Virus record (IMG/VR): IMGVR_UViG_3300045738_001693
Coordinates: 1-42,631 of that record
Length of the DNA stretch: 42,631 nt
Direction: 5' to 3' (one strand)
DNA from: a virus
In this document: positions 1,953 to 41,127 of the stretch, in pieces
How positions within the stretch are numbered: position 1 is the first letter of the stretch
How the letters are laid out: every line of letters begins with the position of its first letter
Position numbers and translations under genes: made by a program
The notes under the pieces: model-generated
What the model was told of the DNA's origin: nothing
The model's input: only the letters and a program-made list of their open reading frames with translations
Databases searched by the model: none

Positions 1953-2978
1953 TTAAATATTCCGGCCGAACACTTCGTTTGATTGTTGTGCTACTCTGAC
2001 AAATGTTGCGCATTTAGGCATATGTCTAATTGCGATAGCACCAATATATGTACAGGCGCTTCTTACTCCGCCTAGAATACCTCTCACAGTATCAGAAACG
2101 GGGCCTTTGTAAGGAACTTTAACACACTTACCTTCTGAGCTTCTATAATTAGCGACACCGCCGGAATATTTGTCCATTGCCGCGGCTGAACTCATTCCAT
2201 AGAATTGTTTTTGACCATCTACTACTTCTCCGGAGCATTCATCATGACCAGCCAGCATGCCGCCCAGCATAACAAAATCAGCGCCCCCACCAAAGGCTTT
2301 GGCCACATCGCCAGGGCAAGTACACCCACCGTCAGCCATAATAAACCCACCAACCCCATGAGCAGCGTCTGCGCATTCAATGACTGCGCTGAGTTGAGGG
2401 TAACCCACACCAGTTTGTATACGAGTAGTGCAAACAGACCCAGGCCCAATCCCCACTTTAACAATATCAGCTCCATTTAAAATTAATTGCTCAGTCATCT
2501 CACCAGTAACAACATTACCAGCTATAATCACTTTATCAGGATATTCTTTCCTGATCTTCTTTACATACTTACTAAATCTCTCGGAATAGCCATTTGCAAC
2601 ATCAATGCAAATAAATGTAATAAGCGGGTGCCTCTCGAACATAACATCCATCACATCTTTATCACGATCCTTTAACCCGATTGTAACCGCACAGTGAGCA
2701 GATGGTACAGCTGATAATGTCGTATCTGTATCTTCTATAGTAATGTACTTATGAAGACATGTTAGCATCCCGAACTCAGTTAATGTCTTAGCCATTTCAA
2801 CAGTACCAACGTGATCCATATTGGACGCAACGATGGGTACACCGGTCCAGGTTTGATCGCAATTTCTAAATACAAATCTACGTTCAAGGTCTACTTCTTT
2901 TCTTGAACCGAGCGTAGATCGCTTTGGCCTTAGAAGCACATCCTTGTAATCTAATTTAATGTCCTGCTCAATTCTCAC
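1953..2978 (-). CDS. guaC: GMP reductase
   Basis: A 341-aa IMPDH/GMP-reductase family protein that would convert GMP to IMP and ammonia with NADPH. Visible motifs are the N-terminal [12 protein letters not shown], the GNVVTGE strand (153-160), the catalytic loop [20 protein letters not shown] with Cys183 (E. coli Cys186), IMADGGC (213-219) and the YRSSEGK flap with Glu282. GVGYPQ after the loop and the absence of CBS domains favour GMP reductase over IMPDH, and the length matches E. coli GuaC (347 aa). It starts with GTG in a GTGA overlap with queF, so the two are co-translated. It may recycle host guanine nucleotides toward adenine in an AT-rich genome, or adjust the GTP pool feeding 7-deazaguanine synthesis; both roles are inferred. 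Confidence 0.93.
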
Positions 2979-4294
2979 TGCCTAATAAGCTTGAGATGGT
3001 AGTTAGGATTAGTTAAGTTATCCGGTTGGAAGTTGATACCGAGAAGTGACTCATCTGATACCCGAATAGGATTAATATCGATACCACCTCTTCTTGAATA
3101 GAAGCATGCAACGCCCAATTGTGCTGGGTGATATGTATCTAACAATCGTTTATATATTGTTTCACAAACCTCTTCATGAAAGTGATTCTCGTCTCTAAAC
3201 GATATAATATATTCCAATAAAGACATAGGCTCGCATACTTTGTTACCAGCCATAAAAATAAAAACATCACCCCAATCTGGTTGATTGGTAACTTTACAAT
3301 TAGATTTTAACAATGAACTATGATAGTGAAAAGGTTCGGCAGCTCCTGGTATGTCGCTTTTAATTTTTAGTAATGACGGAGTTTCAGTATAATGTTTAAA
3401 TTGTTTTTCATTAGCATTCTGTAACAACTCTAGAGTTTCATATTTAACATTGCTTGGTGTATTCTTTGGAGTCTTAAAAATATCATGAGGGTTATTAATT
3501 TCACTATGGATTTTATATGAATCATCCGCGGATTGTAAGAACACTTTTACTTGAGTATTTAAAAGTTGACTCAGATCCATTTGTATAGTGCTCTCTACGA
3601 TTTTTAGCGCGGTAGCTCTTGAAGCTCCAAATTTAGACATATTAAAAGAGTTTAGATATAGTTTTAAGCTTTTTGATTCAACTATATGCGAACTGTCACA
3701 GGGATATAATATCTTAGCAACACCAGTTACTGGCATGCCATTTATTGTTAGGCAAGAGACTTCATATGCGTTCCAAAGATCATAGCCTTTAAATGGTAGT
3801 TCACCCGGTTGAATATCTAGATGGTCTCTATTATTTTGTCTTAACTCTTTAACTAACACTGATGTATCATATTTTTTAGGGTACACCACAGTCTTACCTA
3901 GATGAGTTTCTACATCAGTCCTAGGTAGCGGTTTAAATTTAAGATGCATTTCTTTTTCGCGGTGTCGCTTTTCATTCTCAACATATTTTTTTTGTTGAGC
4001 TATCACTTCATCAGCTTGCTGGTGATACCCGCCCCAAAAGCCGGTCGATTGCCAATCAAAATTTTCGCCATCTTCTGGATATTCAATTGGCTTCGGGTCG
4101 AAATATTCTACGTCGGCTTCTGTAGCATTCATAGCTGCTCCCAGTTCAACCTTATCAGCTTCTAGCATTAATTTTGCCTCTTCACTTTGAGTTGGTTTTA
4201 CCGGTGCTTGGTGCTCAGTAACCATCTCAGCAATTGGATCCACAATTTTTTTCGCTGCTATTTTCGCAGGTTTATTTTTCTTCTTTCTCGCCAT
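2975..4294 (-). CDS. queF: QueF, NADPH-dependent preQ0 reductase (long form, extended N-terminus)
   Basis: Reduces 7-cyano-7-deazaguanine (preQ0) to 7-aminomethyl-7-deazaguanine (preQ1). Counting from the MCMARK methionine at 4300, it shows the two-module E. coli-type layout: [13 protein letters not shown] (168-180), the NADPH-site signature [13 protein letters not shown] (208-220), catalytic Cys335 in [14 protein letters not shown] with Asp342, FHEE (374-377) and RRGGIDINP (403-411). About 130 residues precede the QueF domain; this extension is Lys/Glu/Ala rich and not part of normal QueF (about 280 aa). I place the start at the second ATG (4294, MARKKK) because a TATAAT ends 6 nt before it. 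Paired with DpdA and QueC elsewhere in the window, a DNA-modification role is more likely than tRNA queuosine synthesis. Confidence 0.95.
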
Positions 4295-4300
4295 ACACAT

Positions 4301-4345: not shown

Positions 4346-5356
4346 ATGGGGAGAGATCCAAATAAAATATGTATTGTTGTCACGGGAGCCACTCGGCCGG
4401 ATTCCCTAAAATGTAATCTAGAGATTTTAAAGTATTCACTCAATGAGTTTGACTACCATGTTATTGTTAGTTACTCTGGGGACAATCAATGGGAACCATA
4501 TTTAGAGGATGATACTATATACCACGGGAACCTCGGGATACAATTAGGATGCTCTAGGCATTTGAATACTGCAATATCATCTGGTAGATTAACTGATTGT
4601 AGATACCTTCTATATATTAATTCGGATGTGATGGTGTTGCATGAAAGTTTTATTGTTAATGCAATTAATCGAATGAAAGAAAACAATAAATTTATTGCGG
4701 GTAATTCATCCGGGTATCCTAATGGTGCTCCTTACAATATACATGGTATCTGCACTCAATGGGTATTTTTTGATTTAGATTGGGATTATGGGCTAGATAA
4801 GATTTTCCCATTACCAGAAACGAGTACAGATGTTAATTGGTGGCACAGCCTCGAGCAGACATTTGGATTTGCATATTGTAGGGTGTTAGCGGATGAACGT
4901 AGCGAGCCATATCAGCCTTATGGCTATCCAGATAAGATGTGGCCTGGGGTCCATGATAGTTACACAAGCTATCTTATCTTTATTGATGAGTTAGAGCCTG
5001 GTCCAAATGCCACGTTCGGATGCCCTAAATATGATCGAAGATATCAAGGTGTGGAGGGGGGTATATGTTATAGCCATCATCCAGATGTATTGCGAGATTG
5101 TTTAAAGTTATTTGGCCTTCCACATTCACCCTATCAGAAAAATATAACTAAACTAGTAGAAGCACCTGATTCAGAATTTTATCCATGGATACCTCCGTAT
5201 GAACGTCGGGCAGATGCGTGGTTTGATAAAGGTGCTCTTTTTCATTATAATGTTTGTAATGAAAAATATAAGGATCCGAACTACATGAAAAATAGTTTAA
5301 AAAAATGGGAAATATTAAAAGATATAGTGCGTGTAAAATTTAATCTACAATACTAG
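4346..5356 (+). CDS. GT-A-like glycosyltransferase, late gene (336 aa)
   Basis: N-terminal layout of a nucleotide-sugar glycosyltransferase: a beta strand ICIVVTGATRP, LGCSRHLNTAI near 68-77, and YLLYINSDVMVL, where Asn-Ser-Asp (92-94) occupies the usual DxD metal-binding position. The rest is rich in Trp, Tyr, Pro and His and matches nothing I recognise. A late promoter just upstream puts it with virion-stage genes, so it may glycosylate virion proteins or act on cell-surface glycans. It converges on the next minus-strand gene with a 17-nt overlap. The fold assignment is moderately secure; acceptor and donor are unknown. Confidence 0.7.
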   Translation: MGRDPNKICIVVTGATRPDSLKCNLEILKYSLNEFDYHVIVSYSGDNQWEPYLEDDTIYHGNLGIQLGCSRHLNTAISSGRLTDCRYLLYINSDVMVLHESFIVNAINRMKENNKFIAGNSSGYPNGAPYNIHGICTQWVFFDLDWDYGLDKIFPLPETSTDVNWWHSLEQTFGFAYCRVLADERSEPYQPYGYPDKMWPGVHDSYTSYLIFIDELEPGPNATFGCPKYDRRYQGVEGGICYSHHPDVLRDCLKLFGLPHSPYQKNITKLVEAPDSEFYPWIPPYERRADAWFDKGALFHYNVCNEKYKDPNYMKNSLKKWEILKDIVRVKFNLQY

Positions 5357-6653
5357 GCTCCATAGATTCATCATATTCAATTAACCGCTTTGCTTCACCG
5401 TGGCAATTTCTCCGGTGTCGTATTTTCCAAGACACAATTAAATCCTCCCCCTCCAAATCAACCAAACTATATCCTAATTTATAAATGCTATTTGTAAATG
5501 GTATTTCACTTCTATGTTCATGCTTTGGGCAAGCATTAGAGCGCCCTCTAACGTTTTCAGTATCAAATAAGTAAGGTAAAATATCACGCTTCATCTCCTC
5601 GCAATAATTACCTTCTCGGATTTTTCTTAAAATGGATCTAGTTGTTATTCCAACTGCACCGTGAGCGTGGCTATTATCAGGATCATTTCCGTGCGTATCA
5701 TTGATCCCTACAGCAGCAACAAATCCCACATTAGTATGCAGATTTCTTATTTGTTGTATAGCAGTTGCCATAACACCATCCTTTAGAACAATCTGATCGT
5801 CTTCACATAAGAACCAAAAATCATAATCATTTTCAAATTTATAAAATCCAAAATCATATGCTCCAAAAGACAACCCTATGTTTTCTCTAAAAGTAGTTTT
5901 TATTTTTCCATTAGGGGTAGGTTTACCATTTAAAAATCTTATAAAATCTTCACACTTACTATAAAAAATAGGATCTTCAATTTCAAATGTGTTTAAATTT
6001 AAGCATTTAACTTCATCTGGGCGCAATACATTATTAACAATAATTGTATCCATGGGGACTCCATAATTTAAAATGCTTTCTTTTCCCCACAAGAAGTGGA
6101 GCATTCGGTATGTAGCGCTACAATTACAATCATGCCGAGGCCAAGCTCTTCTAAACCCAAAAAAGGTGGGAATAACTTTACAGGATGTTCCAGTTGTGTG
6201 GCTTAATTGCTTGCGCATTATAATGCTATCCTTACCATTAACAGGCTCTCTTTTTATTTCTTCAAATCCTAATTTTATATATAACTTTTGTGCAGGTGTG
6301 TTTGTTTCTAAAACAGCGAGGTCTACATATCGATAACATTTATCTTCTAAAATTTCAAACAATTTATTATACCCTTGTATTGCATAGCCGTTTCGCCGGT
6401 GGTCGGGATGTATATCTGCCCCGACATATAACGAACCAGCTAGTAAATCAACATCACTAGTTCTTATATAACCCACAGGAGTTTCGTCGTTGGTGATAAT
6501 AAACCATGCAGGAGAGTCTTGTTTAAACCATTTCAGAAATTGCTCTCGATCAAATATAGTATCATTATGTAGAAATGATCTGGTCTGGTCGTTATTTCTA
6601 ACGCTGAGAACAAACTCCGCGTCTTCTAGCGTCATGGGTCTCAGCGCTACCAT
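5340..6653 (-). CDS. Fusion: N-terminal GNAT acetyltransferase, C-terminal glycosyltransferase-like domain
   Basis: Residues 1-150 form a complete GNAT N-acetyltransferase of the RimJ/PseH type: LRPMTLEDAEFVLSVRN at the start, the acetyl-CoA loop HPDHRRNGYA (82-91), and NTPAQKLYIKLGFEE near the end. Residues about 155-437 are a separate domain with WFLCEDDQIVL (EDD 284-286), which resembles the metal site of a GT-A glycosyltransferase. The fusion suggests acetylation of an amino sugar coupled to its transfer, which would fit the PLP sugar aminotransferases encoded elsewhere in the window. It overlaps the FkbM gene by 7 nt and is co-transcribed with it. Domain calls are firm for GNAT and tentative for the second domain. 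Confidence 0.75.
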   Translation of the reverse strand: MVALRPMTLEDAEFVLSVRNNDQTRSFLHNDTIFDREQFLKWFKQDSPAWFIITNDETPVGYIRTSDVDLLAGSLYVGADIHPDHRRNGYAIQGYNKLFEILEDKCYRYVDLAVLETNTPAQKLYIKLGFEEIKREPVNGKDSIIMRKQLSHTTGTSCKVIPTFFGFRRAWPRHDCNCSATYRMLHFLWGKESILNYGVPMDTIIVNNVLRPDEVKCLNLNTFEIEDPIFYSKCEDFIRFLNGKPTPNGKIKTTFRENIGLSFGAYDFGFYKFENDYDFWFLCEDDQIVLKDGVMATAIQQIRNLHTNVGFVAAVGINDTHGNDPDNSHAHGAVGITTRSILRKIREGNYCEEMKRDILPYLFDTENVRGRSNACPKHEHRSEIPFTNSIYKLGYSLVDLEGEDLIVSWKIRHRRNCHGEAKRLIEYDESMEPSIVD

Positions 6654-7276
6654 TTTGCATTATATCTAAAAATGTGGCTGTTATCAGCCAGAGATTGTAT
6701 AAATGTGTAATCGCTCTCTTCGAGAATATTTTTAATATGATCCCAGTCTTGTTCGTCATGGTCATTGAATTCGATAGCTAAAAATTTGAAATTATATTTG
6801 TGGAAATCGATACCCATAATAGCTTGAAGAACACAATTTTCAATATCTATCACACCATAGTCAATTAAATGCGGGGCATCGTTTTCACGTAATATAGAAG
6901 TTATAGTCTTTGTTTTAACGTCAATGGTATTTTCATTTCTATTATTATCAACAATTCTAGAGTGACCCATCATCCCACCGGATGGTTGGTTAAGAAATTT
7001 GACAGTTTTCTCTCTGTCAGATATACATGCATTAACACATATATTATTAGGTCTATTTTGTTTTAATTGATCATATAAGTGAGTATTTGCTTCTACTAAA
7101 ATACCTGTCCAATTAAAATCTCTTTCTAATATAGCGGTATTTGATAGTATAAATCCATCAGTAGCTCCACACTCAAAATAAAACCCCTCTTTCGGTGAGG
7201 ACATTTTATTCAAAAAATTCATTTCGACATTGCCGCGCTTACACTTATCGATATTAGGTATTCTAAAATATGACAT
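6647..7276 (-). CDS. FkbM-family SAM-dependent methyltransferase
   Basis: Shows the FkbM pattern: GFYFECGATDG (SAM-binding motif I, residues 31-41), a conserved Asn-Thr shortly after, ILVEAN (59-64, acidic residue binding the ribose), and IDIENCVLQAI in place of the common IDxEGxE element. Such enzymes usually O-methylate sugars or small molecules. The open frame extends to an ATG at 7318, but that start would lie inside the divergent late gene, so I use the ATG at 7276. A TATAAT-like box at 7292-7287 has only a poor -35, so its promoter is uncertain. It is transcribed together with the GNAT fusion. Confidence 0.8.
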   Translation of the reverse strand: MSYFRIPNIDKCKRGNVEMNFLNKMSSPKEGFYFECGATDGFILSNTAILERDFNWTGILVEANTHLYDQLKQNRPNNICVNACISDREKTVKFLNQPSGGMMGHSRIVDNNRNENTIDVKTKTITSILRENDAPHLIDYGVIDIENCVLQAIMGIDFHKYNFKFLAIEFNDHDEQDWDHIKNILEESDYTFIQSLADNSHIFRYNAKW

Positions 7277-7299
7277 ATTATCTACAATTATATTGATTC

Positions 7300-7307
7300 T
7301 ATAAATA
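7300..7307 (+). promoter_or_regulatory. T4 consensus late promoter box
   Basis: A perfect TATAAATA ends 5 nt before the ATG at 7313. With T4 spacing the transcript would begin at about the start codon itself. Confidence 0.8.
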
Positions 7308-7312
7308 TTAAT

Positions 7313-8041
7313 ATGCACGGTACCCCAAAGAATGTTGTATTGACGTTTGATGATGGATTGCAGTCACACTATGATGTTGTAAAACCATTACTAGAAGAGC
7401 ACGGATTTCGTGGGACGTTCTTTATAACCCCTGTACGTATGCCGCGATCCGATAATCTGGAATTAGAAGAGCTACCGATACCAATATCTAAGTTAAAGGA
7501 AATGCACGATGGAGGTCATGAAATTGGTAATCATACAATGAACCATTGGAGAATGGCGACGCTGCGGGAGTCTTTATCCAAATCAGTAGAGGATATTCAT
7601 GAAGGTATCCAGCGATTAAATGACCATATTGTGAGTGGCGGAATGCCTAGACCGACATCTTTTTGTTATCCGGGATATCATTGCAACCGTACTTTGGCAG
7701 AAATAGTTGAGCGTCATGGATTTAAGTTCGCTCGAACTGGTTATATTTACGACGAAATTTCGGGCCCTATCCGATATCCTGAGTATTATTATCCTGGCAA
7801 GCATAGCCCCGTATGGGAAGATCATGAACGCTTGATGCTTCGGAGTACGGGTATTGTTAGTGATCAGTATACATGCAGGCATTTTGTTCATGATGTAGAT
7901 CGTCAGCCTCTAGACACATATAGCATCTTTACTTTTCATGGTGTGAGGGTTGACTCTCAGATAGAAGATTTTAGAGAAATACTAAACTTCTTATATAGAA
8001 ATAAGCATAATGTTATGCTTCTAAGGGATGTACCTATTTAG
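7313..8041 (+). CDS. Polysaccharide deacetylase (CE4/NodB family), late gene
   Basis: Carries the CE4 motifs: TFDDG (11-15, catalytic base and metal Asp), the metal-binding H-x3-H in GNHTMNH (His74, His78) and a CYPGY motif (118-122) in place of RxPY. The C-terminal FTFHGV resembles the last His-containing motif. These enzymes remove N-acetyl groups from chitin, peptidoglycan or similar polymers using a divalent metal. There is no signal peptide, so it acts in the cytoplasm or is packaged in the virion. The late promoter suggests a role in virion assembly, cell-wall remodelling at lysis, or depolymerisation at entry. Its 3' end overlaps the opposing methyltransferase gene by 8 nt. Confidence 0.85.
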   Translation: MHGTPKNVVLTFDDGLQSHYDVVKPLLEEHGFRGTFFITPVRMPRSDNLELEELPIPISKLKEMHDGGHEIGNHTMNHWRMATLRESLSKSVEDIHEGIQRLNDHIVSGGMPRPTSFCYPGYHCNRTLAEIVERHGFKFARTGYIYDEISGPIRYPEYYYPGKHSPVWEDHERLMLRSTGIVSDQYTCRHFVHDVDRQPLDTYSIFTFHGVRVDSQIEDFREILNFLYRNKHNVMLLRDVPI

Positions 8042-8525
8042 TTATAATGGCTAGCAAAAATACCCCACTCTGACGCCCATTAGGACCTTCATTAAATGGC
8101 ACTTCGCGGAGGACACCGCCAAATTTTGATAAGCATTTATTAATAGTAACTGGGTCTGGTGGGAATCCGGTATCACCCCCCACTATAATTGTACCATTAA
8201 ACGAATCATTTGATAAGATTTTATCGATTAAGAATTCATTATCTCTATCTGGTAAATTGGGCCAAAAATAATACACATCCGCCTCAGGTATATCATCATG
8301 AAGGTAGTCAGCAACGATAATTTCAAGGCCTCTGTCTTGGGCGGGCTTATATCTTTTTGGATTCACCTCAACTCCGATGACTTTTTTGGCATATCGAGAC
8401 ATGAACACCATATTGTCTCCTTCTGCGCAGCCTAACTCACATACTACTTTGTTTTGTATGAGGTCTTTTATTGCATGAGACACTGATTCCGGTGACCTAT
8501 AAGGGGGTGTAGTGAGGGGGTTCAT
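8034..8525 (-). CDS. Class I SAM-dependent methyltransferase (163 aa)
   Basis: A compact Rossmann methyltransferase: motif I CELGCAEGD (29-37), an acidic residue Glu53 ending strand 2, VADY (71-74), and YYFWPNLP (85-92) at the motif IV position. Its short length leaves no separate target-recognition domain. It overlaps the aminotransferase gene by ATGA and is the last gene of the long operon headed by dpdA, so its substrate could be a sugar, a small molecule or a modified base. Nothing in the sequence decides which. Confidence 0.75.
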   Translation of the reverse strand: MNPLTTPPYRSPESVSHAIKDLIQNKVVCELGCAEGDNMVFMSRYAKKVIGVEVNPKRYKPAQDRGLEIIVADYLHDDIPEADVYYFWPNLPDRDNEFLIDKILSNDSFNGTIIVGGDTGFPPDPVTINKCLSKFGGVLREVPFNEGPNGRQSGVFLLAIITK

Positions 8526-9658
8526 GTGAATCGACGTATACTATCAGCGATGTATTTACGATCGTCATAGGTCACCCACCAACCGTTAGGTATGCATATT
8601 AATTTCTTAAGATATCTGTCTAAATTAGGTAAATGGCTTCTGAATTCTTTAACGCAAGTATGCCCGTCATTGCGTTCATGTACTTGGCTAACGACGATTT
8701 TTTTCTCTTTCATATAGTCCATAAAAGCAGCTTTTTTATCAACCAATAGAGAATATATCCAATACGCAGCTACTCTATCTGTATTAGATTCCAGCAATGT
8801 AACACCCGGGAGATCTCGTAATTCCTTGTTGTAGTATTTTGCGTTGCTTTGATTTTTACTTATAACTTCCTTGTCAACTATTTTTAAGTTTTCAATTCCA
8901 ACTGCTGCTGCTACGTCATTCATATGAAATTTAAATCCCCATTCTGGGACATCCGCTTCGCATCTAAAGTCTTTTTTATTTGTATTTCTATCGATGCCGT
9001 ACCATCGGAGTAGTTTGGCTCGATGGTGAGTTTCTTCGTCTGGTGAGATTAATATACCTCCATCGATAGTGGTGAGATGTTTGATAGCTTGAAAGCTATA
9101 ACACGCCAGGTTGCCGTGATTGCCTAATTTCTTTTCTTTATACGTACTGCCAAAGCTATGAGCGCAGTCTTCAATTACTGTTGGTCTAAATCCGAATACG
9201 CTTTCAGTTTTATCTTGTATGTGTTTGATTCTGTCTAAGTCAACAGGATAACCGCCCCAGTGGACGATCAATATGACTTTTGTATTTTTTGTAATTTTTC
9301 TCTCTAAATCATCTAGATCCATATTCATTGTGTTTGGATCAATATCTACCCATTTAATTTTTAGGCTGTTAGCGAGAATCGGCCAGTTTGAGGCCGTACA
9401 AGTTAGCGGAGATGCTAGAACTTCTGATTGGTCAGTCAGACCCATAGATCCCCGCGTCATATGAAATGCTAAATGTAGAGCAGATGTGCAAGAATTAGTC
9501 GTGTTAATTAGGTCAGTACCTAACCAATCTGATAACATTGCTTCAAATTCTTCTACCTTTTCACCTTGTCCTATAAACCCTGAATCTAGAACTTTGGCGG
9601 CGGCTGCTCCGGCCGTTGGAGCCATGAAAACTTTAAACAGTGGAATCATCGTCTGCAA
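8522..9658 (-). CDS. DegT/DnrJ/EryC1/StrS-family PLP aminotransferase
   Basis: Full length (378 aa) for the family that transaminates nucleotide-linked keto sugars. Visible are the N-terminal GFIGQGEKVEEFE, TTNSCTSALHLA, VIEDCAHSFGS with Asp164, and YSFQAIKHLTTIDGGIL with the Schiff-base Lys193. An equally suitable ATG lies 9 nt inside the chosen start. It overlaps the upstream kinase gene by 26 nt and the methyltransferase by ATGA, so it is expressed with the dpdA operon. The likely product is an amino sugar nucleotide that could feed the GNAT and glycosyltransferase proteins. Confidence 0.9.
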   Translation of the reverse strand: MQTMIPLFKVFMAPTAGAAAAKVLDSGFIGQGEKVEEFEAMLSDWLGTDLINTTNSCTSALHLAFHMTRGSMGLTDQSEVLASPLTCTASNWPILANSLKIKWVDIDPNTMNMDLDDLERKITKNTKVILIVHWGGYPVDLDRIKHIQDKTESVFGFRPTVIEDCAHSFGSTYKEKKLGNHGNLACYSFQAIKHLTTIDGGILISPDEETHHRAKLLRWYGIDRNTNKKDFRCEADVPEWGFKFHMNDVAAAVGIENLKIVDKEVISKNQSNAKYYNKELRDLPGVTLLESNTDRVAAYWIYSLLVDKKAAFMDYMKEKKIVVSQVHERNDGHTCVKEFRSHLPNLDRYLKKLICIPNGWWVTYDDRKYIADSIRRFT

Positions 9659-10331
9659 CCATTTGTTTTGTTTCGTCTGGTGTTAAAAAAGCCGCACTAG
9701 GTGGCGGTGATGAAGGCGTTTTTGGTTCCCACGGCACATCTAGTAGCGCTCTAATTACATTAAATCTTTGCTCAACATTACCCATTAAGCGAACTATTCT
9801 ACCTTTTACAAACGGATATTGATGACCAGCTGAATGCGCCGACATCGGACGAAGCGGTCGAACTTGATCTCTGCTAGACTTTTCTAACATATACATATGA
9901 TCTTCAAAGCGTTGATGCATTGCTTCTCTAAATTTATGATCAACACTCCGGACACCATCATCAACTAAGTCGACAGGTTCTGTATAGAATATTAAATCCA
10001 AACTTGGCATAAGATCAAGATATATATCAATAGCATGTTTCCATACACCTTGACTGACTTTTCCCATATCGTATAGATATTCTGTATATAAAAAGCCATC
10101 TATAATACAGCGATCCATAATGACGTTTTCCTTTAGAGCATTGTCCATATGGCTTTGTATAATGAACATTTGCGTTTCATCGCCGCCCTGTTCATTGATC
10201 GCTAGGCCCTTAGCTAAAGCCGGTCGAGTTACTTCATCTACATATGTGTATTTGTCACCGTAATGCTCTTTACACTTTTTTAGCAAAGTGGTCTTACCAG
10301 ATGATTGTATGCCTGTAAAACTAATCTTCAT
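9633..10331 (-). CDS. P-loop NadR/AAA_28-like kinase
   Basis: Begins MKISFTGIQSSGKTT with a Walker A at residues 7-15, then YVDEVTR and IMDRCIIDGFLYT, the pattern of the NadR-type AAA_28 kinase group (deoxynucleoside, ribosylnicotinamide or thymidylate-like kinases). HKFREAMHQRFEDHMY is a plausible lid helix. The C-terminal 35 residues are a Pro/Ser-rich acidic tail absent from typical members. It could phosphorylate a modified nucleoside or a cofactor precursor; the substrate is unknown. Confidence 0.75.
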   Translation of the reverse strand: MKISFTGIQSSGKTTLLKKCKEHYGDKYTYVDEVTRPALAKGLAINEQGGDETQMFIIQSHMDNALKENVIMDRCIIDGFLYTEYLYDMGKVSQGVWKHAIDIYLDLMPSLDLIFYTEPVDLVDDGVRSVDHKFREAMHQRFEDHMYMLEKSSRDQVRPLRPMSAHSAGHQYPFVKGRIVRLMGNVEQRFNVIRALLDVPWEPKTPSSPPPSAAFLTPDETKQMVADDDSTV

Positions 10332-10506: not shown

Positions 10507-10842
10507 TTATTTACCCCATTTCTCATTTGAAACAATCTGTGCAATAATACTGTATACTGATAGATCTTTAAATGCGTCCTCTATCGGTTCGTTTTGTGCT
10601 TTAACTTTTCGTCTAAGAACGAGGTTAAAGAGTCTTTGAATCTTGTCGTTAATACGAATAATAATCGCAGTAATTGATAGATGACGGTTATCGGGATCAG
10701 ACAGATCCATCCCAAGAGTAATGTTATGTTGTCCGTAATCGTACTGCTTTTTACAGAACGTATCATATTGTTCTTTTTGTAGTCGCTTAAATTCATTACA
10801 CGTCTCCGGGTAAAGTTTTTCTATTTCTTTTACTATACTCAT
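10507..10842 (-). CDS. DUF1599 / Nmad1-like protein (111 aa)
   Basis: Matches the pattern of the 'nucleotide modification associated domain 1' family (DUF1599): KKQYDYGQHNITLG near residue 31, IIIRINDKIQRLFNL (60-74), and a final ESI/D-type helix, here PIEDAFKDLSVYSIIA. Iyer and colleagues linked this domain by gene neighbourhood to phage base-modification pathways; its activity is not known to me. It overlaps the formyltransferase gene by 1 nt. Its place between the formyltransferase and kinase supports a role in, or protection of, the modification pathway. Confidence 0.7.
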   Translation of the reverse strand: MSIVKEIEKLYPETCNEFKRLQKEQYDTFCKKQYDYGQHNITLGMDLSDPDNRHLSITAIIIRINDKIQRLFNLVLRRKVKAQNEPIEDAFKDLSVYSIIAQIVSNEKWGK

Positions 10843-11363
10843 TACTTAATTTTATTGGTTAAGAATTTCACCCATAATTGTATTGAGGTATCATGTAATT
10901 TTTCAATTACCTCACTCAACCATAAGCCTTCAATAGACACTTCTTTCTCTAATATAATTTCTCCTGAATCTACTTCAGGTATTGCTTTATGTATAATACA
11001 CCCTGAAGTTTTTAATTCCATCTTATATGCTTTTAATTGTGGATCTTTCCCTTTAAGTTCTGGGTATTTTGTAATTAAGCCTGGATGTCCATTGTAAATA
11101 TTTCTTTTTTCACACACCTCACTGGGCACTATCCGCAACCAACCATGCATTGTTACCAATGCGTCTTCTGGAATATACTGTAGGTACTCTTCAACTGTTG
11201 GTTTCTTTTCAGTAAAGATCATAGGAGCTTTACCAATAAGATCATCATTTATTTTAATAAAATCTGTAGCATTGCTGATAATTAAATCAGGGTACCGGCC
11301 AAGAAGTTCTGATACCTGGCATATCTCAGATCCTGTTTGCGAAAATAATGCGACCCACTTCAT
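10842..11363 (-). CDS. PurN-like formyltransferase, candidate dPreQ1 formyltransferase (DpdN-type)
   Basis: A 173-aa formyltransferase domain related to GAR transformylase (PurN). The catalytic triad can be aligned: Asn91 and His93 in IYNGHPGLITKYPELKG, and Asp132 in PEVDSGEII, with KTSGCIIHKA just before. The N-terminal loop FSQTGSEI replaces the usual glycine-rich loop. Such enzymes move a formyl group from 10-formyl-tetrahydrofolate to an amine. A phage purine-pathway enzyme is unlikely to stand alone. With QueF making the primary amine of preQ1 and DpdA inserting the base in the same operon, formylation of preQ1 in DNA is the best fit. Assignment to the published DpdN group is inference. 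Confidence 0.8.
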   Translation of the reverse strand: MKWVALFSQTGSEICQVSELLGRYPDLIISNATDFIKINDDLIGKAPMIFTEKKPTVEEYLQYIPEDALVTMHGWLRIVPSEVCEKRNIYNGHPGLITKYPELKGKDPQLKAYKMELKTSGCIIHKAIPEVDSGEIILEKEVSIEGLWLSEVIEKLHDTSIQLWVKFLTNKIK

Positions 11364-11575
11364 TTATATAATTCAGCTATTGTATTGGTATCAATAAGCT
11401 CGAGCGCCCAATCATAAGCAGATTCTGGATCGTTAAAGTCTCTGCATTGTTCTGTGATCCAGGACTTCTTACCTCTCTTATACACAGAGCATACCCAACA
11501 TTCTTTATCCGTTCTAGCTAGTGGTGATACTTTGATCCACCAACCGTCTTTAGCTAAATCGCACAATATGTTCAT
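11360..11575 (-). CDS. Hypothetical protein (71 aa)
   Basis: An ATG at 11587 is open, but the internal ATG at 11575 forms an exact ATGA overlap with the upstream stop and is preferred. The small protein starts MNILCDLAKDGWWIKV, carries a CWVCSV element and ends in a helix ALELIDTNTIAELYK. It overlaps the formyltransferase by 4 nt. No family recognised. Confidence 0.6.
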   Translation of the reverse strand: MNILCDLAKDGWWIKVSPLARTDKECWVCSVYKRGKKSWITEQCRDFNDPESAYDWALELIDTNTIAELYK

Positions 11576-11814
11576 TTGCTTAGACATTTAACTTCTGATT
11601 CTGTTTCAATTACTACTCTAGCACCGCACGGTAAAAGAGGCTTATCGTTACCGCCATATATTACTCTGCACGGACCTTCAATCCAAACTTCATTACAGTA
11701 CTCATTCTTACGACCGTATTTACCAGTCTTGACGGATAATACGAGTTCATTAGTTCCGTGCTTTTTGTTAGCACGAATCTTATGCTGGTTCACATGAATA
11801 TACTTTTTCTTCAT
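11572..11814 (-). CDS. Conserved small protein of the HVNQHKIRANKK type (80 aa)
   Basis: The segments YIHVNQHKIRANKKHGTNEL, VWIEGPCRVIYGG and LPCGARVVIETE match, from memory, a small beta-rich hypothetical family spread through phages and bacteria. No function is known to me. Its N-terminus overlaps the 3' end of dpdA by 35 nt, so it is translated directly after the transglycosylase. Confidence 0.7.
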   Translation of the reverse strand: MKKKYIHVNQHKIRANKKHGTNELVLSVKTGKYGRKNEYCNEVWIEGPCRVIYGGNDKPLLPCGARVVIETESEVKCLSK

Positions 11815-12619
11815 ATCGGTTTATAATGCGCTTAAACATCTTAGTATTATAGCGGACGTCCTCAAGCATACTATCATCTACATGTGCGCTAATTAAATCG
11901 CAGAGCATTGTAGATGGTTTCTCTTGTAAGCCTAGATCGCCATTATATCTTAGACCTTTGAGCGCAGCCACAATAGGGTTACTAGTGTCACAACTACGTA
12001 TATTAGTAATGCCTTTATCAACATAATATTTAAATTCCTTTGCTAAACTACATCCAAGTAAGTGATGAGGCTTAGACCAATTCCAATACCCCTTATCAAT
12101 TAGATCTTGAATAAAGCGCTGCCTACCGGTGCACCACAGGTTAAGTTTGTCTTTACCATGGCCTGTATATTTATAATAAGAATAATCAAAGCTAATGGCG
12201 ATGTAGTCAGCATGGCGCGACATAAAGTGATAGCACTCAACAAGATCATTCCAGTTCTTACCCTGTACAACGCCGATTTTTAAGGATGTACATTCAGCAG
12301 GCTCATGTCGCAATTTCCAGTCTTGCCACTTGTCTATCGTACCCATGCAATCTTGGAGAACATCCGGGACAATATAATAATTTGGATTGATTTCTCGGAG
12401 CCAATGAGCATATTTCTTAGGCTCAAAAGCTTCACCGAGCTCAAAAATACTATTATCTAAAAGGACTTCTGCCCCGTATCGCTTATTAACAGTAAGAAAC
12501 CAATCCCGGTAAAGTTCATTCTCTTCCATCAAATGCACTAAGCAATACTGATAATCGTTATATTCTAGTGATTCTTCGAAGAGCTGAATCGGAGACTCGT
12601 GAGATACTAATAGCTTCAT
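11780..12619 (-). CDS. dpdA: DpdA-type 7-deazaguanine DNA transglycosylase
   Basis: A 279-aa protein with the motif order of tRNA-guanine transglycosylase. LLDNSIFELGE (Asp55) corresponds to the ILTDSGGFQ region, VPDVLQD to the second Asp loop, KIGVVQG (114-120) to the FGIVQG base-binding loop, HHLLGCSLAKEF to YLMGVGTPEDL, and RSCDTSNP with Asp211 to the nucleophile segment FDCVMPTR. TGT-fold phage enzymes of this size exchange guanine in DNA for preQ0 or preQ1 and are called DpdA. The tRNA-enzyme zinc-site arrangement is not evident. It is the first gene of a long early operon with its own promoter. The subfamily cannot be fixed by eye. Confidence 0.88.
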   Translation of the reverse strand: MKLLVSHESPIQLFEESLEYNDYQYCLVHLMEENELYRDWFLTVNKRYGAEVLLDNSIFELGEAFEPKKYAHWLREINPNYYIVPDVLQDCMGTIDKWQDWKLRHEPAECTSLKIGVVQGKNWNDLVECYHFMSRHADYIAISFDYSYYKYTGHGKDKLNLWCTGRQRFIQDLIDKGYWNWSKPHHLLGCSLAKEFKYYVDKGITNIRSCDTSNPIVAALKGLRYNGDLGLQEKPSTMLCDLISAHVDDSMLEDVRYNTKMFKRIINRYEEKVYSCEPA

Positions 12620-32313: not shown

Positions 32314-34042
32314 AACATTATTACAATTTCTATTAGAGCAGAAATCAAATATTGAGGAGTATGAGACCAATATAGATTTATGGGCTCGCTTAGATAAATT
32401 AGACCAAGATCAATTACAATATCTCCAGGATCGATTTCGATTCTGGTATAAAGATAAAGGATTTGATTTTAGTGAAGCACCGGATCCTTTTAAGGGAGAT
32501 GCAGATCTTCCGCATTATCTCGGCGGAAAAGGTCCGGGCCGACCGGTGCCAGACGAACCACCAAGCGCGATGCTTAGTACCGCTGCCCAGGCTGCCGCTG
32601 CCCAGGCTGCCGCTGGGTGGAGTGATTACGCCGGGAATGTCCAGCACTCAGCGCAGCATGGACTATCTCAGTCATACGTTCCTAAGGGTAACCTATTAGG
32701 AGAACACCAAACCTTTTCTAATTTCTGGTCTACAATAAACGAAGCGAAAAGACCGCGGTCATTAGCTGGCGGAGGTTATTCGGCGCAGGAATTCCCAGAA
32801 GATGATGAGCCCAAGAAGGATGATGATAAGAAGGACCCGTATCCGACGGTAGCTGATATAGCGGCTGGAGATACTTCGGATGTTCAAACTCAACCAGAGA
32901 CACCAGCATCAGTGGGCCCGCCAAAAGATGAACCAGCGGTTGAGGTACCAAAAGATCAACCGGCAGATGATACAGCAGTGGCTGGTGAAGAAGAGGCCGG
33001 TAAGGCCGACGCTCACGAAGTTTATGAAGATGTAGTATCGGGTGAAACGCATTCTATGAAATTCAAACAGCCATCAGGACCTACAGATTTTAATAATGAA
33101 ATTTTTAAAATTACCCACCGGGTGTTGCTTTATATTACTAAAAGAATGGCTTCCGGGAAGCCTGAAGGAGCAGGTCCGAGAATTCCATATGAACTGGGGC
33201 CGGATGAATACGATACGGATCCAGGTTACAAAGAGCCAAGTGAACCATCCACAAAACCGTCGGGTGAGGTGAAAGGATCGGAAGATCAATCATGGTTCGG
33301 GACAAAAGATATGTGGAACCCGGAGATGGTATCAGATAGAGAGTCATTTGATTGTAGTGATTTAAAATCAGTACAGCAGACTAAGTGGATACTTAACACG
33401 GTACAACAAATAGACAAATATCCAAATATTTCAAAAACCGCGAAGAGGGTATTTAACATCTGTCGGATTTTCAGAGATAAAGAAGGTGTAGTTGCAGGAC
33501 CTACTAAGTTTTGGTGTAAGGAGTTCCACACAAAAAAGAAGCGGGGCATTATATCTAAAATTATGAAAAAATCGATGAGCGGTGAGGAATTACAGGTTGG
33601 TGATATAGTTTGGGCGTTTAATGAGTTTATCAAAGCAGGGATCATGATAGGCGTAAGACCAAAACCTAATGATCCACAAGATGGAGATCTTTTTAGTACA
33701 CCGGATGAGCAACCATCTACACCGCGCTTCTCTCCGGATGTCGCGCCGGCGGATTGGGGCCCGAGGGATAGCCCCAGATATGATTGGTACAGTCAAATAA
33801 AACAGCAAGGGATGGTAGCTGAAGTATTGGGACTATTGGGCAAAGCCGGTATACCCGTGCATGAGATAAATACGATCGGTGATGTTCTTAAAACAAGGGA
33901 GACATTGCCATATGCGCCAAGTACAGGAGGAGAGCGCTCCGCGCAGGACGCGCGCGCGAAGGAATATCCTGTCTCAAAACCGGCGGCGAATCTTCGCGGT
34001 GAGCCGGGGCCGCCCCATACCCAGCTGGGATTGGGTGTCTAA
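32306..34042 (+). CDS. Late protein with disordered acidic/Pro-rich region (578 aa)
   Basis: Unrecognised. The N-terminus MNKTLLQFLLEQKSNIEEYE resembles the amphipathic N-termini of many T4-like virion and core proteins. A small Ala/Gln tandem repeat lies near residues 93-103. A long low-complexity Asp/Glu/Lys/Pro region covers about 165-240. A more globular domain (about 255-460) contains WFGTKDMWNPEMV and YPNISKTAKRVFNICRIF. Its last four bases (CTAA) are shared with the stop of the opposing queC gene. Probably a structural or scaffold-like protein. Confidence 0.65.
   Translation: MNKTLLQFLLEQKSNIEEYETNIDLWARLDKLDQDQLQYLQDRFRFWYKDKGFDFSEAPDPFKGDADLPHYLGGKGPGRPVPDEPPSAMLSTAAQAAAAQAAAGWSDYAGNVQHSAQHGLSQSYVPKGNLLGEHQTFSNFWSTINEAKRPRSLAGGGYSAQEFPEDDEPKKDDDKKDPYPTVADIAAGDTSDVQTQPETPASVGPPKDEPAVEVPKDQPADDTAVAGEEEAGKADAHEVYEDVVSGETHSMKFKQPSGPTDFNNEIFKITHRVLLYITKRMASGKPEGAGPRIPYELGPDEYDTDPGYKEPSEPSTKPSGEVKGSEDQSWFGTKDMWNPEMVSDRESFDCSDLKSVQQTKWILNTVQQIDKYPNISKTAKRVFNICRIFRDKEGVVAGPTKFWCKEFHTKKKRGIISKIMKKSMSGEELQVGDIVWAFNEFIKAGIMIGVRPKPNDPQDGDLFSTPDEQPSTPRFSPDVAPADWGPRDSPRYDWYSQIKQQGMVAEVLGLLGKAGIPVHEINTIGDVLKTRETLPYAPSTGGERSAQDARAKEYPVSKPAANLRGEPGPPHTQLGLGV
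32582..32611 (+). repeat. Two tandem copies of a 15-bp repeat
   Basis: GCTGCCCAGGCTGCC occurs twice in a row inside the 578-aa late gene and encodes two AAQAA units. It is GC-rich against the AT-rich surroundings and looks like a slippage-type in-frame expansion. Confidence 0.85.
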
Positions 34043-34770
34043 TAATGACCTCCTTCGTACGTATCCATCGTTAAGTTATCTAAATTAGTTGGCCAGGGAA
34101 TCTCTCTGCTGTACTTAATGGGGTCTTTGACGCCCACATCCATGAATCCTTTAATGCGAGATGAGCAGGCTGTACATTCACCACATGCTTTTTCTTTCCC
34201 TTCATAACATGTCCATGTTTTACTAAAAAATACACCCAAATCTACTCCCCATTCTATAATCTCTTTTTTTGATTTTTCTATCAGAGGAGCTTCGATCTTA
34301 ATTCGGTGCTTTCTATTCAAGGAAGCTAAATTATTAATTGATTCTAAGAATTCAACGCTACCATCCCAATAACCAGCCTGAGTATCTACTTGGGCAGCTC
34401 CGTGATATACTGTATTAGCACCTACAGATTCGGCATATGCACAGCAAATAGACAACATCATCTGATTCCTAAACGGTACATAATTAACTGTCTGAGCATC
34501 TCCTAACACGTCACGTGTCTTAGCTACATCGATGTCTGGATTTGTTAGTGATGATGTAGTTATGTACTTGAAGAAATCTAGAGCAATAACTCTATAGTTT
34601 ACTTTGAGCTTGAATGCTGTTTCACATGCACAGTCCAGTTCTTTATCATGCCGTTGACCATAATTGAATGATATTGCATGAACTTCATCGAAATCACCTG
34701 ACTTTACTGCATGATACAATAGAACTGTTGAGTCTATACCGCCTGAGAATGGAACTATTACCTTATCCAT
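34039..34770 (-). CDS. queC: QueC, 7-cyano-7-deazaguanine (preQ0) synthase
   Basis: Converts 7-carboxy-7-deazaguanine to preQ0 using ATP and ammonia. It has the PP-loop SGGIDS (9-14), FNYGQRHDKEL (35-45), VPFRNQMMLS (98-107) and the zinc-binding cysteines Cys188, Cys196, Cys199 and Cys202 near the C-terminus. About 25 residues extend past the usual end. It is transcribed alone from its own early promoter. Upstream enzymes (FolE, QueD, QueE) are not in the window, so they lie elsewhere in the genome or come from the host. It supplies preQ0 to QueF. Confidence 0.95.
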   Translation of the reverse strand: MDKVIVPFSGGIDSTVLLYHAVKSGDFDEVHAISFNYGQRHDKELDCACETAFKLKVNYRVIALDFFKYITTSSLTNPDIDVAKTRDVLGDAQTVNYVPFRNQMMLSICCAYAESVGANTVYHGAAQVDTQAGYWDGSVEFLESINNLASLNRKHRIKIEAPLIEKSKKEIIEWGVDLGVFFSKTWTCYEGKEKACGECTACSSRIKGFMDVGVKDPIKYSREIPWPTNLDNLTMDTYEGGHY

Positions 34771-40472: not shown

Positions 40473-40501
40473 ATTATAAATTATACGATAAGGAACGTCA
40501 A
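40473..40501 (-). promoter_or_regulatory. Early sigma70 promoter of DNA polymerase
   Basis: TTGACG (40501-40496), 17-nt spacer, TATAAT (40478-40473), 7 nt to the ATG at 40465. It is one of the best consensus matches in the window. Confidence 0.85.
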
Positions 40502-41127
40502 CTGTTAAAGCATGTGTACTTGGATATATCAGGATAATTTTCCCATGAAGCTAAATCTTTATTTACTTTAGGCAGTCTATAGAACAATTCGAGCCCTCTG
40601 GCAGCTTGCTCTGGGTTCATATACATATGATATCCTAGCATATCAATGTCTTTTATATCATTAAAGAAGACAGTCTTCCGGCCGTCATACCTTGCTTGCT
40701 TAAGCCATTTAACAGCCGTTTTATTGTTAGTCAATATCATTCCGCCATGCCCGATAGGTATAAACTTTTTAATATGAAATGATAAACAGACGAACTCACA
40801 GCCGATATCTTCATACATGTCACTGTAAAACCTGGTAGCGCTATCTGCTAATGAATATGGTCGTAATCGATATGACCCTTTCCAGTCTCTATCAACAAAC
40901 TTTAGATTGAACCCTGCGTGTATTACGGCCTGCGGTATGGATAAAAATGTATGCTTCGGTATTTGTACCGGTTGCGCGGATGCTGCAGATGGTAGAACCT
41001 TTTCGTAATACTTTAAGCATAGAAAAATCGAATTAGTGCAACTGTCTGTTGCTACTCCATATTTTGCGCCTGCATATTCAGCAACAACCTCTTCAAATCT
41101 ATCAACATTTTCCCACGGACTATTCAT
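40498..41127 (-). CDS. Short DegT/DnrJ-type PLP aminotransferase (209 aa)
   Basis: Aligns with the central part of DegT/DnrJ enzymes: YGVATDSCTNSIFLCL, then LADSATRFY with the cofactor-binding Asp95, and CLSFHIKKFIPIGHGGMIL with Lys121 at the Schiff-base position. It is about half the usual 370 residues, lacking most of the N-terminal arm and the whole C-terminal domain. The active-site residues and reading frame are intact, so it looks like a reduced family rather than a recent pseudogene. It may catalyse sugar transamination or a related PLP reaction; it overlaps the glycosyltransferase gene by 8 nt. Confidence 0.75.
   Translation of the reverse strand: MNSPWENVDRFEEVVAEYAGAKYGVATDSCTNSIFLCLKYYEKVLPSAASAQPVQIPKHTFLSIPQAVIHAGFNLKFVDRDWKGSYRLRPYSLADSATRFYSDMYEDIGCEFVCLSFHIKKFIPIGHGGMILTNNKTAVKWLKQARYDGRKTVFFNDIKDIDMLGYHMYMNPEQAARGLELFYRLPKVNKDLASWENYPDISKYTCFNS

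Follow-up and report, generated by a model that had tools for sequence, protein, structure and literature searches.

A predicted formyl-preQ1 DNA hypermodification cassette with a near-constant kinase gene in a phage genome fragment

Which DNA base would a virus make if it encodes a DNA-guanine transglycosylase-like protein (DpdA) and, separated from it by two small open reading frames (ORFs), a formyltransferase? This question is raised by the 42,631-base virus record IMGVR_UViG_3300045738_001693, the whole of which is referred to here as the window. It is probably a fragment of a tailed-phage genome, and a megablast search with 10 kb of the window gave zero matches among GenBank phages. A first-pass annotation, made from the letters alone, had proposed that DpdA, QueF and a PurN-like formyltransferase place formylated preQ1 in the DNA. 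This proposal is well supported by gene order at about 140 loci, by fold and by conserved residues, the chemistry being predicted, and we consider it likely that the window carries a phage DNA hypermodification cassette yielding formyl-preQ1 DNA. The features of the window concerned are the following.

11780-12619, minus strand: DpdA, predicted TGT-fold DNA-guanine transglycosylase (279 aa; assigned by identity, AlphaFold2 fold and invariant residues)
11572-11814, minus strand: small protein, 80 aa, phrog_8676, not constant in the cassette
11360-11587, minus strand: small protein, 75 aa, phrog_29167, not constant in the cassette
10842-11363, minus strand: PurN-like formyltransferase, putatively DpdN-type (173 aa; PF00551, PurN-like profile, catalytic triad)
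10507-10842, minus strand: DUF1599-like protein ('nucleotide modification associated domain 1'; PF07659 weak; phrog_1485, 8.8e-14)
9633-10331, minus strand: P-loop kinase (AAA_28/NadR/thymidylate-kinase-like; PF13521, 2.1e-13)
4346-9658: block of glycosyltransferase, GNAT, FkbM methyltransferase, polysaccharide (CE4) deacetylase, small methyltransferase and DegT aminotransferase genes
2975-4300, minus strand: QueF-family protein, bimodular, putative nitrile reductase converting preQ0 to preQ1 (PF14489; TIGR03138 below its cut-off)
1953-2978, minus strand: GMP reductase (GuaC; NF003470, 551 bits with a cut-off of 397; TIGR01305, 517.7 bits with a cut-off of 492)
34039-34770, minus strand: QueC, preQ0 synthase (PF06508, 1e-60; TIGR00364)

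The positions given for DpdA and the formyltransferase in the first-pass annotation were borne out. Since DpdA gave zero matches to Pfam or NCBIfam models and its sequence profile led to no assignment in the PDB, its fold was taken from an AlphaFold2 model (pLDDT 88.5), for which the top PDB folds in Foldseek were all tRNA-guanine transglycosylases (TGT; E 4.5e-8, TMq ~0.6). The residues that had been singled out as marks of a TGT fold (Asp55, a GVVQG loop and Asp211) are present: the window protein has the substrate loop G116-VVQ-G120, and D55, D86, Q119, G120 and D211 are invariant across 138 relatives, the equation with the catalytic Asp pair and the VQG-type loop of TGT having been made by motif. 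The protein is 44% identical to gp206 of Flavobacterium phage immuto_2-6A, annotated as 'DNA guanine transglycosylase', and 42% identical to gp056 of Campylobacter phage CP220, a hypothetical protein in such Campylobacter phages; a protein of Cellulophaga phage phiST is distant (27%). By sequence, the window DpdA belongs to the same group as CP220 gp056 and immuto gp206. The DpdA of Enterobacteria phage 9g (DpdA1) likewise performs a TGT-type exchange of guanine for 7-deazaguanine in DNA, but it is not recognised by a profile of the window's group, which would therefore be a subgroup of its own. We take the CP220-type subgroup to be the DpdA3 of the scheme published by Cui et al. in 2023. A statement in PMC6884629, made there with reference to Crippen 2019, reports that guanine is highly replaced by dADG in CP220-type Campylobacter phages, and because the window DpdA groups with theirs, high guanine replacement is plausible, by analogy, in the window's phage.

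The formyltransferase scored 36.7 bits with PF00551, above the Pfam cut-off of 26.1, and is 53% identical to gp204 of immuto_2-6A, which served as a proxy for the published DpdN in our comparisons. Its Asn91/His93/Asp132 triad, noted before as intact, is kept in all 137 distinct relatives, among which P108-Q109 and W164 are also invariant. When a profile of 18 relatives was compared with the PDB, PurN ranked top (7.5e-16), with sugar formyltransferases at 1e-8 or worse. With PurN as its nearest family, the enzyme might be a PurN of the phage's own with which purine synthesis is raised, a role that has been proposed for the PurN of cyanophages. However, its score with the PurN model TIGR00639 amounts to 43.5 bits, with a cut-off of 150.1, and it is accompanied by no other purine-synthesis gene. 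Furthermore, the position of PurN Glu173, a contact to the ribose, is occupied by Ser, Ala or Gly and that of PurN Asn13 by Glu or Asp in 137 of 137 relatives, whereas Glu173 is retained by the PurN of cyanophage P-SSM2. As Glu173 is missing from all 137, the cassette formyltransferases are probably not GAR transformylases; a role in GAR formylation was rejected on this residue evidence and strikes us as very improbable. Judged by its residues, the catalytic site is PurN-like and the substrate site is not, and the changes in the latter are consistent with a substrate that has no ribose diol, for example a base or a deoxynucleotide. The enzyme is predicted to formylate the amine of preQ1 with 10-formyl-THF.

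If these two enzymes act together, their genes should travel together, and viral contigs were scanned twice with single proteins and twice with profiles, giving about 140 distinct DpdA loci. The best 80 matches were used per scan, so that the counts apply to loci relatively close to that of the window; cassette loci compared with it carry L-numbers (L004, L157 etc., L003 being CP220). Relatives of the formyltransferase are encoded on 576 viral-contig stretches. Among the matches listed, the 48 fully flanked formyltransferase loci have the kinase within 4 kb in every case and DpdA and QueF in 47 each; 59 fully flanked DpdA loci contain the kinase (57), QueF (57) and the formyltransferase (55); and 45 kinase loci have QueF without exception, with the formyltransferase and DpdA in 44 each. 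The genes of each cassette locus listed share one strand, and few loci depart from the order DpdA, formyltransferase, kinase, QueF; in nearly all relatives, QueF immediately follows the kinase. The formyltransferase is lacking from 8 of 156 DpdA loci listed, and contig ends cut some of these. On one contig of 5.9 kb (L006:1-5922), QueD, a QueE-like radical SAM protein, FolE, DpdA, the formyltransferase, the kinase, QueF and the start of QueC follow each other in a row. The real unit, as seen at about 140 phage loci, is DpdA-formyltransferase-kinase-QueF. The kinase, which had been listed as an optional neighbour, is in fact the fourth, near-constant component of the cassette and belongs to the modification system.

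Within the window, the ORFs overlap or abut from DpdA through to the DUF1599-like gene, so that their co-translation is likely; the kinase gene follows after about 175 bases. The idea that these genes lie under one early promoter found no support: its basis was a single TTGATT-17-TATAAT match at 12655-12627, and the region has 12 promoter-like matches as compared with 11.0 (sd 3.2) in shuffled sequence, which is no excess. QueF and QueC are both encoded in the window, as had been stated; QueF, however, is not part of the gene run of DpdA but lies about 6-8 kb from the DpdA/formyltransferase run, beyond a block that contains plus-strand genes.

This block of glycan-type genes (4346-9658, about 5 kb) separates the kinase from queF. 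The kinase directly abuts QueF in L004, L010 and L011, the closest relatives of the window among the matches listed, and relatives of the block genes were found in none of the other cassette loci listed; by this comparison, the block is an insertion outside the modification cassette. The DegT aminotransferase and the methyltransferase, earlier suggested to extend the pathway, are both inside it, and because the block is missing from every relative listed, they were rejected as pathway genes and are regarded as bystanders. The DegT gene (8522-9658) is in the same strand run as the formyltransferase gene, its product most resembles sugar aminotransferases of the PseC kind (209 bits with TIGR03588, well below the cut-off of 423.5), and glycosyltransferase, deacetylase, GNAT and FkbM genes adjoin, as would be expected if the formyltransferase and the aminotransferase made an N-formyl amino sugar for a glycan. 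Yet the formyltransferase is accompanied by DpdA/QueF in 47 of the 48 fully flanked loci listed and by the DegT block in no other, and its profile is far nearer to PurN than to the sugar formyltransferases by the values given above. Sugar formylation was rejected on this neighbourhood evidence, and we find it scarcely credible. Near the window end, at 40498-41127, there is a second, short DegT-like ORF (209 aa) that is apparently incomplete.

The two small ORFs between DpdA and the formyltransferase had been described as conserved. Their PHROG family matches hold, but in the cassette they are not conserved, as among the matches listed a single further contig has the 80-aa protein and none has the 75-aa protein, and both were rejected as pathway members. 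In the three closest relatives the place of these ORFs is taken by a gene for a HIT-family protein (L010:8806-9180, L011:8803-9168, L004:1053-1400). Another inserted gene, of the ornithine cyclodeaminase/mu-crystallin family, is found at L011:9906-10826 between the formyltransferase and DUF1599.

Where would the preQ1 come from? The product of 2975-4300 passed the cut-off of PF14489 (63.1 bits; cut-off 27.3), whereas its 251.5 bits with the curated equivalog TIGR03138 are under the NCBIfam cut-off of 293.45, and it was assigned as a QueF-family protein and putative nitrile reductase. It has about 130 additional N-terminal residues that are absent from its relatives. QueC passed the cut-off of TIGR00364 (187.6 bits; cut-off 150.3), and FolE, QueD and QueE are absent from the 42.6-kb window. 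A gene for a Vut_1 transporter (PF02592), whose family includes the preQ0 importer YhhQ, is located between FolE and DpdA at L007:6130-6756. Phage QueF proteins that give dPreQ1 are known from phages Dp-1 and HVTV-1 (Hutinet 2019, PMC6884629). In the pathway that we propose, QueC, together with FolE, QueD and QueE supplied by the host or encoded in another part of the phage genome, would make preQ0, which QueF would reduce to preQ1. DpdA would then swap guanine for preQ1, or for formylated preQ1, by a TGT-type mechanism, and the PurN-like enzyme would transfer the formyl group of 10-formyl-THF to the aminomethyl nitrogen of preQ1. The product would be 2'-deoxy-7-(formylamino)methyl-7-deazaguanine (fdPreQ1), which should shield the DNA from restriction. 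The substrates, the product, its protective effect and the sequence of the insertion and formylation steps are inferred from gene identities, fold, residues and gene order.

The closest annotated counterpart is the cluster of immuto_2-6A (NC_055915 gp202-gp216), where the same four genes occur in the same order. There, DpdA (gp206) and the formyltransferase (gp204) are near-adjacent, and FolE, QueD and QueE are close to the cassette. The window differs in that QueF is displaced by the inserted block and a GMP reductase gene is added, and in that it has DUF1599 instead of the PRA-PH/MazG-superfamily gene found upstream of DpdA in immuto_2-6A. Formyl-preQ1 (fdPreQ1) in phage DNA was reportedly described by Cui et al. 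in 2023, who are said to have named the predicted dPreQ1 formyltransferase DpdN; the phages concerned reportedly likewise combine this enzyme with DpdA and a preQ1 supply. The window adds a further predicted example of a chemistry that was reportedly described in that year.

What, then, does the kinase do? Its Walker A lysine is kept in 146 of 146 relatives, and its profile is nearer to NadR, thymidylate kinase and deoxynucleoside kinase than to guanylate kinase. Annotated phages with this kinase are immuto and Campylobacter phages, with weak matches in a few Streptomyces phages, and most of the Campylobacter phages that carry it are CP220-type phages with this DpdA. In CP220/CPt10, for which dADG is the reported product, the same kinase adjoins DpdA at a locus with neither formyltransferase nor QueF, which points to a general function in guanine exchange. 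It probably acts on nucleotides or nucleosides, either modified ones or those regenerated from released guanine. Full-text searches of the literature did not find a role for the cassette kinase, and we know of none assigned to a kinase or a pyrophosphohydrolase in the fdPreQ1/DpdN scheme of 2023.

Nucleotide-pool genes other than the kinase accompany many cassettes. The DUF1599-like protein, which the first-pass annotation considered a possible extra part, proved to be clade-specific and, in four loci, fused to the formyltransferase in a single ORF of about 302-309 aa (L157:7001-7909, L181:2331-3242, L183:68-979, L196:2200-3129). It scored 18.7 bits with PF07659, below the gathering score of 25 bits, this model being matched weakly by 5 of 10 relatives, and it is possibly a nucleotide-pool enzyme. 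Among the matches listed, DUF1599-like genes are present at 33 of 138 DpdA loci, PRA-PH (MazG superfamily) genes at 27 and dATP/dGTP diphosphohydrolase genes (PF18909, 77.6 bits) at 10; one of these three candidate nucleotide-hydrolase families is present at 70 of the 138 loci and two together at none. The DUF1599 and PF18909 genes share one place, between the formyltransferase and the kinase. At L003:4868-5899, directly upstream of the CP220 DpdA, gp055 joins an HD phosphohydrolase and a P-loop domain in a single protein.

The T4 hydroxymethylcytosine pathway (gp56, gp42, gp1) likewise brings together enzymes for base modification, nucleotide hydrolysis and nucleotide phosphorylation, a likeness drawn by analogy only. 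In a 7-deazaguanine counterpart of that pathway, a hydrolase (DUF1599, MazG-superfamily or dATP/dGTP diphosphohydrolase) would lower dGTP, the base would be exchanged on the free nucleotide, the kinase would phosphorylate the modified dGMP and the polymerase would incorporate it; if true, this would explain complete replacement without post-replicative exchange. The near-constant kinase that tracks DpdA even in CP220, the mutually exclusive hydrolase families with their shared place and the HD/P-loop protein next to the CP220 DpdA all fit such a route. On the other hand, half of the loci listed have no such hydrolase nearby, and the exclusive pattern can be explained on the DpdA tree with only 7 changes and may therefore reflect clade structure alone. 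DUF1599 was not linked to the pyrophosphohydrolases by hhalign (probability <=2.5% against PRA-PH and dGTP_diPhyd clusters, in shallow alignments), and its structure model is poor (pLDDT 52). Cui et al. reportedly argued for post-replicative insertion, and we hold incorporation through the nucleotide pool to be rather unlikely. It is also at odds with the activity of the phage 9g DpdA on plasmid DNA in E. coli (PMC6884629).

With modification placed after replication, the same accessory genes could serve another purpose: a putative guanine phosphoribosyltransferase (PRT), the kinase and GMP reductase might recycle the guanine released by DpdA and balance purine pools. Of about 156 loci listed, 36 have a PRT gene in the neighbourhood of DpdA, both PRT types being on the DpdA strand, and immuto has such a gene as well. 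In the window, a true GMP reductase gene begins within the last 4 bases of queF. Against this stand the minority share of loci with a PRT, the near-restriction of GMP reductase to the window (among the cassette loci listed, a weaker match occurs only in L075) and the kinase profile described above, which is not closest to guanylate kinase. Guanine salvage is put forward tentatively, and the GMP reductase as a possible purine-balance accessory; the salvage reading concerns accessory genes only and is compatible with the formation of formyl-preQ1 DNA by DpdA, QueF and the formyltransferase.

In the literature searched, we did not find a description of the tight linkage of the kinase or of the alternating nucleotide-pool genes. 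The formyl-preQ1 gene set thus appears as a compact and widespread phage cassette, in which a near-constant kinase is added to a pathway that is not known to have been described with one. The role of this kinase bears on the question of whether 7-deazaguanines enter phage DNA after replication or via the nucleotide pool.
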